Of a DNA stretch of 20,430 nt, positions 8,879 through 20,430 are shown piece after piece. The first letter of the stretch is position 1. Every line of letters starts with the position of its first letter. The position numbers and the translations under genes were made by a program. The notes beneath the pieces were generated by a model. The model had not been told where the DNA came from. It did no database searches and saw only the letters and a program-made list of their open reading frames with translations. The DNA comes from a virus, in IMG/VR virus record IMGVR_UViG_3300008459_000532, positions 1 through 20,430 of that record; one strand, 5' to 3'.

Positions 8879-8907
8879 TTTATATCACGTTGCTGGAGGT
8901 AGGTCAA
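8879..8907 (-). promoter_or_regulatory. Sigma-70-type promoter for the tail-side genes
   Basis: On the minus strand TTGACC (8902-8907) and TATAAA (8879-8884) are separated by exactly 17 bases, giving five of six matches in both boxes. Transcription would start near 8872 and give an 88-base leader before the ATG at 8784. The promoter overlaps the last codons of the GIY-YIG gene. It lies downstream of a strong terminator, so it would restore expression of the following genes. Confidence 0.6.
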
Positions 8908-9727
8908 CGTACTGAAAAACCAAGCCCGTAAATTGACCTTTTGTTATGGGGGAATTGGAGAGCAGCGCGCGTCGAAGCGTGGGCATCTTCATGCCGTAAT
9001 GCTGCAGTACTGCGGTTAAGCTTGGGAATTGCATACCCGTTGTGGCCTCTAGCACCTGCTTGCTCATCTTCAGCTTTGACTCTTCCGAGTGCTTCTTTCC
9101 TAGCCAATTCTGGTTGCCCGTATTCGCTATAGAAAGGTTGCGGCGGTGTTCTTCGGTTCGGATGTGCCCCTTGGTGTTTTGGTTCCCCATCAAAGACGCA
9201 GACATTTTCTTTCGGGTTTCCTCTGAGGGGATAAAGCACCCGCCGCGCCCTTCAGCAACAACTTGCTGCACCTTAGCGGATATCAACGCCTTAGTTTCAT
9301 CGGTGTGTTTTTGCCCTGTACGGGGGTCTGAGGTGGTCCACTGATGTTTTGTCGCTATAGAAAGGATGGATTTAGCGTCCGCAGACATAACTTTCCCGTA
9401 ATTGGGGGTTGTATGCGCTGGGGCGTTTCTCCATGGGGCACTCGCGCTATACCCCGAATTGTAACAGTGCTCCTTGCCCACGTGCTGAACTAGGTATGTG
9501 TCCTCCACATCTAACAATGACCGGGTATCGGGCACTTCTTCTATAACTAGGAAGTCAAACTTGGACTCTCCATACTTATTCCACGCGGCTTGCAAGTGCT
9601 TGCAGTGGTGCCTATTCCCCCGTAACAGGTTACGGTGTTGTCGGAACCGTACTTTCTTATTAATAGTGCTGCCGACATAGAACTTGTCGTTTACTAAGTT
9701 GATAATTTTATAGATTACCTGCGTCAT
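8885..9727 (-). CDS. GIY-YIG homing endonuclease with NUMOD3 motifs
   Basis: The 280-aa product has an N-terminal GIY-YIG nuclease domain: IYKI (residues 5-8), YVGS (17-20), an arginine at 27, HCKHLQAAWNKYG, and a glutamate at 75 in DVEDTYL. Arg27 and Glu75 match the numbering of the catalytic residues of I-TevI. From about 115 to 230 come repeated NUMOD3-type DNA-binding motifs (HTDETKALIS, SEETRKKMSASLMGN, TEEHRRNLSIANTGN, SEESKLKMSK). The C-terminus (about 240-265, PSLTAVLQHYGMKMPTLRRAL) looks like a NUMOD1-type helix-turn-helix. AGGAG AAGTAT precedes the ATG. It is inserted between the capsid gene terminator and the next structural gene. Confidence 0.92.
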   Translation of the reverse strand: MTQVIYKIINLVNDKFYVGSTINKKVRFRQHRNLLRGNRHHCKHLQAAWNKYGESKFDFLVIEEVPDTRSLLDVEDTYLVQHVGKEHCYNSGYSASAPWRNAPAHTTPNYGKVMSADAKSILSIATKHQWTTSDPRTGQKHTDETKALISAKVQQVVAEGRGGCFIPSEETRKKMSASLMGNQNTKGHIRTEEHRRNLSIANTGNQNWLGKKHSEESKLKMSKQVLEATTGMQFPSLTAVLQHYGMKMPTLRRALLSNSPITKGQFTGLVFQYVDLPPAT

Positions 9728-18478: not shown

Positions 18479-18565
18479 AACGGGGGGTACGGGGTATGTG
18501 GGTCAGTGAGCGGCGCTGATTTCGCCCGTTCAGGCGAAAAACCCATATAAATCAATGACTTACAA

Positions 18566-18583
18566 TTACTAGAATCCTAGTAA
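18566..18583. promoter_or_regulatory. 18-bp palindrome, copy 1 (operator candidate)
   Basis: TTACTAG-AATC-CTAGTAA has seven-base arms and is palindromic over 20 bp with its flanking A and T. It lies 12 bases upstream of the -35 box of the plus-strand promoter, centred about 55 bases before the start point. It is the exact reverse complement of copies 2 and 3. Confidence 0.75.
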
Positions 18584-18595
18584 TCATAATATTGA

Positions 18596-18623
18596 TTGAC
18601 ACAGTGTGAAAAAGGAGTATACT
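18596..18623 (+). promoter_or_regulatory. Strong sigma-70-type promoter for the 191-aa gene
   Basis: TTGACA (18596-18601, perfect) and TATACT (18618-18623, five of six) are separated by 16 bases. The start point would be near 18630, about 42 bases before the gene's ATG. The -10 box begins the 12-base sequence TATACTGTACAC, which is repeated at the other plus-strand promoter. Confidence 0.8.
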
Positions 18624-18671: not shown

Positions 18672-19247
18672 ATGACTACTTCAAATGTTCAGGCCTTCGT
18701 CATCACCAAAGCTATGGCAACAATGATTCGCGAGGGTGCAGCCGCTTCCGCTTCCGCGACAGAAATCAAGAAAAAAGCAGCGGCAGATATTGCCCGTTTG
18801 GGCGGCCGCGGCGCGATGTTCTCACTGGCTGGCGTAAAGTCTGGTCAGATCAGCAAAGAAACTTGGGTAAGTCTACAGGCTACTGTCGCGGCCGGATTGT
18901 TCGCGAATAAAAAAGATTCGTTTGCTCTCTGGGCGACGGATTCAAAACTAGCCAACAAAGAAGGAAAACAGCAGGAGCGCAACAAGCTTGTCGGCCTTGT
19001 CGGAACGTATGTCCGCGACTTCGGCAAAATGATCGAAACCGCTTTCCGCGAACACTTCCCCGAAGCGGCCGCGCTGGAAGCCGAAGCCGACGAAGCCGAC
19101 GAAGCCGAAGCCGCGCCAGTCACTGGCGCCGATCTGCGCAAAAGATTGCTTGATCTGATCGCCGATGTCGCTGCTTCTGAGGTGAAAGATCGCGAGCACA
19201 TTCTGGCAAGTCTCAATCAGGCGGAAGGACGTATGTCCGCTTGGTGA
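18672..19247 (+). CDS. Unknown 191-aa plus-strand protein (early gene candidate)
   Basis: ATG at 18672 is chosen because AGGAG lies nine bases upstream; the in-frame ATG at 18606 lies inside the promoter. Residues 1-60 are Ala-rich helix (AFVITKAMATMIREGAAASASATEIKKKAAADIARLGGRGAM), followed by a helical core with ETWVSLQATVAAGLFANKKDSFALW and LVGTYVRDFGKMIETAFREHF. Near 136-150 an acidic linker of EAEADEADEAEA is encoded by nearly identical 9-base DNA repeats. The last 35 residues are helical and charged. I recognise no family. With its own strong promoter, a nearby palindrome and a terminator, it is a single-gene unit opposite to the late genes, so early expression is inferred. Confidence 0.82.
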   Translation: MTTSNVQAFVITKAMATMIREGAAASASATEIKKKAAADIARLGGRGAMFSLAGVKSGQISKETWVSLQATVAAGLFANKKDSFALWATDSKLANKEGKQQERNKLVGLVGTYVRDFGKMIETAFREHFPEAAALEAEADEADEAEAAPVTGADLRKRLLDLIADVAASEVKDREHILASLNQAEGRMSAW

Positions 19248-19279: not shown

Positions 19280-19303
19280 GCCGCCTTCGGGCGGCTTTTT
19301 TTT
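19280..19303 (+). terminator. Rho-independent terminator after the 191-aa gene
   Basis: GCCGCC (19280-19285), a TTCG loop and GGCGGC (19290-19295) are followed by eight Ts (19296-19303). It is a textbook terminator 32 bases past the stop codon and closes the single-gene unit. Confidence 0.95.
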
Positions 19304-19366
19304 GTCCGCGATTTGTGGACTTTTGAAAACAGTAGTTGAAGTTAGTAGTAGATTGAGAACAGTAGT

Positions 19367-19420
19367 AGCAGTGAGCAGTGAGCAGTGAGCAGTGAGCAGT
19401 GAGCAGTGAGCAGTGAGCAG
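19367..19420. repeat. Tandem 7-bp repeat, 7.7 copies
   Basis: AGCAGTG is repeated seven times exactly from 19367 to 19415 and ends in a partial AGCAG. It is not a multiple of three and lies just before palindrome copy 2. A degenerate AGTAGT-rich stretch precedes it. Slippage during replication could change its copy number. Confidence 0.97.
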
Positions 19421-19423
19421 CGT

Positions 19424-19441
19424 TTACTAGGATTCTAGTAA
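19424..19441. promoter_or_regulatory. 18-bp palindrome, copy 2 (operator candidate)
   Basis: TTACTAG-GATT-CTAGTAA, with flanking T and A extending the symmetry to 20 bp. It follows directly after the 7-bp tandem repeat. A TTGACT begins nine bases downstream but has no matching -10 box, so no promoter is claimed here. Confidence 0.75.
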
Positions 19442-19501
19442 AAAGTGGTTGACTTGCTGAAGGTCGCGCCGTTGCTGGGTTGTGGGTGAAGTATAGAAGT
19501 G

Positions 19502-19542
19502 GGCCACCTCGTTTTTCCAAAAGACTCGGATAACAAGTTATA
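19502..19542. repeat. 41-bp direct repeat, copy A
   Basis: It begins GGCCACCTCG and ends ATAACAAGTTATA. It matches copy B at 40 of 41 positions (one C/T difference). The palindrome ATAACAAGTTAT occupies 19530-19541, and a variant of the GGTATAGAAGTAGG motif precedes it. Confidence 0.95.
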
Positions 19543-19580
19543 CCATCCACAAATACTAGAGGTATGGAAGTAGAGAAGTA

Positions 19581-19621
19581 GGCCACCTCGTTTTTCTAAA
19601 AGACTCGGATAACAAGTTATA
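19581..19621. repeat. 41-bp direct repeat, copy B
   Basis: Second copy, beginning 79 bases after the first. The palindrome ATAACAAGTTAT is at 19609-19620. Motif variants at 19561-19574 and 19569-19582 directly precede it, as in copy A. Confidence 0.95.
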
Positions 19622-19669
19622 GTTCATGAAAAGGGAAAAGGTACGGAAGTGGACATTTGTAGAAACGCG

Positions 19670-19715
19670 AAATCGAGCTGGAGGCCGCGAACGGCGCGGC
19701 AGGTATAGAAGTAGG
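19670..19715 (+). repeat. 46-bp inverted repeat, left arm
   Basis: It begins AAATCGAGCTGG, has a GC-rich middle with the hairpin CCGCG-AACGG-CGCGG, and ends AGGTATAGAAGTAGG. It matches the reverse complement of 19841-19886 at 41 of 46 positions, with the last 15 bases exact. Confidence 0.9.
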
Positions 19716-19840
19716 CGTTTGCTCGACCTTGTTCAGGTTTGACCGACCAAAGCGCGGCGATTTCGGTTCGGGAGCACGGGCGAGGTGGGAAAAAAGCTAT
19801 TAAATTCTATGAGGTCAAATAAGAGTTACTTTAGAAAACA

Positions 19841-19886
19841 CCTACTTCTATACCTCCCGCGTCTTTCGGGGCTTCCAGCTCGATTT
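19841..19886 (-). repeat. 46-bp inverted repeat, right arm
   Basis: It begins CCTACTTCTATACCT, the exact reverse complement of the left arm end, and ends CCAGCTCGATTT. Its inner part ACCTCCCGCGTCTTTCGGG (19852-19870) is repeated exactly at 19914-19932. Confidence 0.9.
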
Positions 19887-19902
19887 TGCCTTTTTTCGAC
19901 CT

Positions 19903-19932
19903 CCCACTTCTCGACCTCCCGCGTCTTTCGGG
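19903..19932 (-). repeat. Partial third copy of the inverted-repeat unit
   Basis: It has CCCACTTCTCGACC (19903-19916, 11 of 14 to the motif) running into ACCTCCCGCGTCTTTCGGG (19914-19932), which is identical to the same part of the right arm. It has the same orientation as the right arm. Confidence 0.85.
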
Positions 19933-20027
19933 CCTCGTATGTATTACACCGCCCGTTCTAGACAATAAATTCCCCACTTCTGCTCAAAGTTTAACCAAAC
20001 CCGCCATTCTCCACTTTTACACTCTCT

Positions 20028-20039
20028 GTAACTTGTTAT
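20028..20039. repeat. Third ATAAC-N2-GTTAT palindrome (one mismatch)
   Basis: GTAACTTGTTAT differs by one base from the ATAAC-N2-GTTAT form seen in the 41-bp repeats and at the downstream promoter. The inner ten bases TAACTTGTTA are a perfect palindrome. Confidence 0.6.
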
Positions 20040-20065
20040 TGTTGTTTATTCAGAAAACGTGGTAG

Positions 20066-20108
20066 TCTACTTCCACACCTCGGCTACCTCCCGCGCCGTT
20101 CGTGGCTT
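20066..20108 (-). repeat. Degenerate fourth copy of the inverted-repeat unit
   Basis: TCTACTTCCACACC (20066-20079) is an 11 of 14 motif copy in the right-arm orientation. It is followed, after six bases, by ACCTCCCGCGCCGTTCG (20086-20102), which resembles the reverse complement of the GC-rich core of the left arm. Confidence 0.7.
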
Positions 20109-20134
20109 ACAGACTTTCAACCCGTGCCTCCTAC

Positions 20135-20163
20135 TTGACAAACACGCTATAACGTGTTATACT
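20135..20163 (+). promoter_or_regulatory. Consensus sigma-70-type early promoter
   Basis: TTGACA (20135-20140) and TATACT (20158-20163) lie exactly 17 bases apart. The start point would be near 20170, with an 85-base leader before the ATG at 20255. The -10 box is overlapped by a perfect 14-bp palindrome and begins the shared TATACTGTACAC sequence. Confidence 0.88.
20148..20161. promoter_or_regulatory. 14-bp palindromic operator candidate over the -10 box
   Basis: TATAACGTGTTATA is a perfect palindrome of the ATAAC-N2-GTTAT family. A wider inverted repeat AACACG (20141-20146) / CGTGTT (20153-20158) fills the spacer. A bound repressor here would block the polymerase. Confidence 0.65.
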
Positions 20164-20209
20164 GTACACTAAGAAATGGAGATTTACTTGAAGGAAACCA
20201 ACCCCCGAT

Positions 20210-20227
20210 TTACTAGGATTCTAGTAA
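20210..20227. promoter_or_regulatory. 18-bp palindrome, copy 3 (operator candidate in the leader)
   Basis: TTACTAG-GATT-CTAGTAA, with the same 20-bp extension as copy 2. It lies about 48 bases past the start point, within the leader. In RNA it could fold as an eight-pair hairpin, but copy 1 lies upstream of its promoter, which favours a DNA-binding role. Confidence 0.7.
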
Positions 20228-20254
20228 ATCCAACCACCAACCGGAGCAACACCT

Positions 20255-20430
20255 ATGCGAACGATAACCCTGCACATCACGCCCACCGAAGTAGAACAGA
20301 TGACCGCTGTCATGCACGACGACATCGAGAAAGCCAAGATCGCAGCCACTGCCGCACAAGACGGGCGTACATATAGAATGCTGCTCAAAACCAGTGTTCA
20401 AACCCAAGTGCGCGTAGCTATCGGTCACCT
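20255..20430 (+). CDS. Partial early protein, unknown
   Basis: ATG at 20255 with GGAG eight bases upstream opens a frame that stays open to the window edge (58 complete codons). It reads MRTITLHITPTEVEQMTAVM, then HDDIEKAKIAATAAQDG and RTYRMLLKTSVQTQVRVAIGHL. The stretch TLHITPTEVEQM looks like a beta strand followed by a helix, but no family is recognised. It is the first gene behind the consensus promoter and the two palindromes, so it is likely an early, repressible gene. The 3' end is missing. Confidence 0.65.
   Translation, partial: MRTITLHITPTEVEQMTAVMHDDIEKAKIAATAAQDGRTYRMLLKTSVQTQVRVAIGH

Follow-up and report, generated by a model that had tools for sequence, protein, structure and literature searches.

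The window (the whole 20.4-kb stretch of DNA analysed here) is a fragment of a tailed-phage genome in which terminase, portal and head genes are transcribed leftwards. A 53.6-kb contig (G001) represents the same phage: both end at the identical base, and only window bases 1-267 lie outside the 100% match (of these, 1-197 align at 90% to an adjacent part of G001, probably inside the RCC1 repeats). The structural region encodes a protein of RCC1 repeats with seven matched stretches (81-1217), and HNH and GIY-YIG/NUMOD3 homing-endonuclease-like genes (1609-2115 and 8885-9727) are found amid the structural genes. The phage DNA collection contained no nucleotide match; a known RNA was rejected, as Rfam gave no match at E ≤ 0.1. 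Gene X (18672-19247, plus strand, 191 aa) reads towards the repeat site and ends at a terminator (19280-19295) ahead of its left array, and a sigma-70-type early promoter (20135-20163, plus strand; TTGACA-17-TATACT, 11/12) reads away from it, so that these two elements frame the repeat region. By inspection, an early gene begins at 20256. The gene X promoter (18596-18623) and the early promoter have TATACTGTACAC in common, at and after the -10 box. Directly past the gene X terminator lie tandem 7-bp repeats, (AGCAGTG)n, at 19367-19420, with similar GCAGGCA repeats at the equivalent place in relatives, and the element CAGTAGTTGAAGTTAGTAGT (19323-19379) is almost invariant across all relatives despite diverged flanks.

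The first-pass annotation described opposed clusters of a 14-bp iteron around an AT-rich core. Its exact copies at 19702-19715 (plus) and 19841-19854 (minus) are correctly placed and oriented, as are the weaker ones at 19490, 19561 and 19569 (12/14), 19640 (10/14), and 19903 and 20066 (11/14). The split in orientation also holds, because at a threshold of at least 9/14 all five copies left of the centre are on the plus strand and all six on the right are on the minus strand, with none the wrong way round. The repeat is thus real, but its unit is not 14 bp: the copies are head-to-tail 8-bp octamers (RGAAGTRK; tandem period 8, by inspection) in pairs or triplets. On the plus strand, the left array comprises pair 1 (GAAGTATAGAAGTGGG, 19488-19503), triplet 2 (GGTATGGAAGTAGAGAAGTAGG, 19561-19582), pair 3 (GGTACGGAAGTGGA, 19640-19653) and, innermost, pair 4 (the exact 14-mer, 19702-19715); on the minus strand, the right array runs outwards from pair 4' (again the exact 14-mer, 19841-19854) through pair 3' (19903-19916) and a weak octamer copy (9/14, 19973-19986), which mirrors site 2 in its distance from the centre, to pair 1' (20066-20079). 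Copy centres are mirrored about ~19778 (69.5/69.5, 131.5/131.5, 202.5/201.5 and 281.5/294.5 bp), the third right-hand copy in this series being the weak one. The extra weak right-hand copies at 19973, 20010 and 20127 are each, taken singly, at background level.

The arrays are embedded in imperfect inverted repeats, an inner one with 85-nt arms at 19639-19723 (plus) and 19833-19917 (minus; 78% complementary, 109 nt between the arms) and an outer one with 48-nt arms at 19575-19622 (plus) and 20026-20073 (minus; 73%), and the left arm also contains a 55-bp direct duplication (19488-19542 and 19567-19621, both plus, 95% identical). At up to three mismatches, the window holds nine matches to the 14-mer against 1.25 expected (0 of 100 shuffles reached nine), and these copies are not independent occurrences, because those at 19490 and 19569 sit in the direct duplication and the pairs 19640/19903 and 19702/19841 face each other within the inner inverted repeat. 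An AT-rich segment had been described between the arrays; this applies to 19786-19840 (73% AT), a candidate melting region, but not to 19716-19785 (61% GC), and we count it against an origin that half of the segment between the inner copies is GC-rich. The 50-bp core of 19786-19840 ranks fourth among the AT-rich stretches of the 53.6-kb contig, and in G001 as well as in the relatives G002 and G008 the centre of the site coincides with an AT-rich 50-bp peak.

A 20-bp palindrome (TTTACTAGGATTCTAGTAAA, 19423-19442) forms the left border of the site and an identical copy in the early leader (20209-20228) forms the right border; a third, related palindrome (ATTACTAGAATCCTAGTAAT, 18565-18584) precedes the promoter of gene X. 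In relatives the palindrome recurs ahead of early-gene ribosome-binding sites (start-associated sites are at 1487, 2120 and 2564 in G008, 40088 in G002 and 20209 in the window), and its arms vary between phages in matched fashion (CTAG vs CTCA). It is probably the site of a separate regulator. The SAS/ESAS of Cluster K mycobacteriophages are inverted-repeat elements just upstream of several non-structural gene starts (PMC3203893), a position that the palindrome shares; however, the sequences differ (by inspection, the 13-bp SAS/ESAS core GGGATAGGAGCCC is not in the palindrome sites), and the palindrome also flanks the array and precedes the gene X promoter.

Gene X was found in eight IMG/VR contigs (G001 included), which represent four or five lineages. 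Random motif arrangement in relatives had been named as grounds for abandoning the origin, but the layout, the cluster positions and the promoter are kept in near relatives, with the same layout in L008, L011, L012 and L015. Comparison of the left arm with the reverse-complemented right arm gave z-scores of 25.6 in the window, 25.4 in L008, 24.0 in L011, 12.6 in L012 and 15.3 in L015. The arm sequence is lineage-specific: own-arm scores exceed cross-lineage scores in the window and in L008, and the two are mixed in L011, L012 and L015, which are closer to one another. L011 and L012 are near-identical in the centre and the right arm and differ in the middle of the left arm, where L011 bears TCCCGTCAAATC-GAGGGGGAAAGTA, which is sequence of the right arm copied in inverted orientation. 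A conserved 19-mer (AGTAGTTGAAGTTAGTAGT) was rejected as a means of finding relatives, since its extra matches (L101, L104 and L105) had none of the other features and were judged to be due to chance. The early region of L093 (16574-18822) encodes a VWA-like/metallopeptidase protein beside a MoxR-like AAA ATPase.

A self-inverted-repeat scan of loci whose TerL is ~47% identical detected similar structures. In 29 such distant relatives, we took the AT-richest 40 bp located 1.65-3.3 kb upstream of TerL and scored inverted arms at p ≤ 0.01, a coarse p because each locus had 100 shuffles. Inverted arms were present in 23 of the 29, a descriptive count since the loci share ancestry, compared with four that had direct repeats, and six missed the threshold; control AT-rich spots had inverted arms in 2/29, 1/25 and 0/17 cases. 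The arrangement thus extends, at a matching and conserved position, well beyond the near lineages, but the motif itself has turned over. Many of the distant structures have TATATA-rich centres and GTCCA/TGGAC motifs (GTCCA in several), and GTCCA as a universally opposed motif was rejected, with pooled GTCCA/TGGAC counts of 57/37 on the left and 29/31 on the right; strict orientation is limited to some distant relatives. The metagenome-assembled circular genome DSL-LC04 has an inverted-arm site upstream of TerS, and BLAST detected no such repeat in the first 50 kb of HTVC023P and of HTVC027P. At most distant loci a small gene of ~130-150 aa, opposite to TerS, takes the place of gene X; it showed neither homology nor a profile link to gene X, and no solved-fold match. 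In our literature check, published descriptions of the nearest described phages made no mention of an origin.

Gene X matched neither a family nor a solved or viral fold and was rejected as a known initiator; bacterial genomes contained no relatives of it. No known Rep/O-family initiator was present among the proteins scanned, which covered the small early genes of G002 in part; G001 lacks part of the early region, and an initiator gene could therefore lie there. The relative G002 encodes a DNA polymerase A of its own, together with a primase/helicase and a helicase. The DnaA box TTATNCACA was not found in G001 or G008 and has a single copy in G002, far from the site; host DnaA boxes are not needed by all iteron-type origins. 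Cumulative GC skew, which the first-pass annotation had suggested as a check, does turn close to the site; since it tracks the direction of the genes, however, it is uninformative about the origin, and DSL-LC04, with nearly all genes on one strand, shows no skew turn at its site. We thus rejected skew as independent evidence.

Taken together, the opposed arrays, the AT-rich centre, the replication enzymes of G002 and the lack of a promoter on the left favour a bidirectional origin, and from the sequence we consider it most likely, at somewhat better than even confidence, that 19423-20228 is an iteron-like, phage-encoded bidirectional replication origin. Against this reading stand the scan that yielded no initiator, the absence of the DnaA box from G001 and G008, the missing skew turn in DSL-LC04, the six distant relatives below the threshold, the negative BLAST results for HTVC023P and HTVC027P and the limited strict orientation of GTCCA. 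The initial proposal of an origin is thus supported in part, by the opposed arrays and their conservation in relatives, and gains nothing from skew; that replication starts here is what we infer. A candidate phage protein (the product of gene X or else the primase-helicase) would occupy the octamer arrays of both arms, and the bound arrays would assemble into a complex with two-fold symmetry that would put the AT-rich centre under strain and melt it. The replication machinery could then enter on each strand and copy in both directions, a process that opposed arrays suit, and initiation may be helped by transcription from the early promoter next to the site.

The site shares with known iteron origins both the short repeats clustered at defined spacing (the octamer arrays) and an A+T-rich region beside them (19786-19840). 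In the phage lambda ori, iterons are bound by the O protein, and, as here, repeated initiator sites lie beside a melting A+T-rich stretch with an early promoter nearby; however, the four lambda iterons are on one side of the AT-rich region and inside gene O (PMC5043065), whereas the arrays of the window lie in non-coding DNA and face one another from the two sides of the AT-rich segment, and the proteins scanned included no homologue of lambda O. The iteron plasmid origins (P1, RK2, R6K) likewise combine short tandem direct repeats with an A+T-rich region, but their iterons are mostly direct and helix-phased (PMC5043065), in contrast to the 8-bp period, the two opposed arrays and the absence of DnaA boxes from G001 and G008. 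The origin of PLE in Vibrio cholerae, a phage-related element, also carries repeats in non-coding DNA, and these were tested as iterons for RepA, but they have inverted sub-repeats and a RepA_N initiator (PMC7145576), neither of which was seen in the window phage.

Three other readings were weighed. The site might be a transcription-control hub, in which a phage regulator bound to octamers and palindromes would loop the DNA and so govern the early promoter at 20135, and perhaps also that of gene X at 18596. The strong, conserved early promoter adjoining the array leaves such a regulatory role open, and the border palindrome recurs both before early-gene ribosome-binding sites and upstream of the gene X promoter. 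We nevertheless regard this reading as unlikely, because there is no promoter for the left half of the array to act on (gene X terminates ahead of it), an early promoter so near consensus ought to work without an activator, regulation would not call for a symmetric AT-rich centre, and the palindrome suits regulation better than the octamers do. Less likely still is a site for partition or some other assembly, or the absence of any dedicated function, the inverted repeat being maintained chiefly by template switching: arm-to-arm copying is visible and would by itself keep the arms alike, but the flanks diverge around a conserved position, AT-rich centre and set of octamer clusters, and the proteins scanned yielded no recognisable partition genes. 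Marginally the least probable is that the terminase small subunit recognises the site for packaging, as a pac or cos region. The constant association with terminase (~2-3 kb upstream of TerL and close to TerS family-wide, upstream of TerS in DSL-LC04) keeps this role open, but mirror-symmetric arrays around an AT-rich centre are unexpected for it because packaging is one-directional, and the last base common to the window and G001 cannot be taken for a genome end, given that G001 has no terminal repeat.

To our knowledge, the origin is unknown for the majority of uncultivated phages, and GC skew is of no help where it merely tracks gene direction, as in this phage. The search for inverted arms at AT-rich spots provides a way of proposing an origin from sequence only, and it works even where the motif has not been kept. 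More speculatively, and with considerable doubt, the bidirectional origin proposed here might represent a family-wide type of phage origin, with two opposed initiator arrays, a melting centre, symmetric loading and arms matched by inverted copying, in which motif and origin change together. Arm-to-arm copying would offer a route by which a multi-copy binding site changes everywhere at once; if this is true, inverted copying between the arms lets the binding motif and the origin change together from phage to phage.
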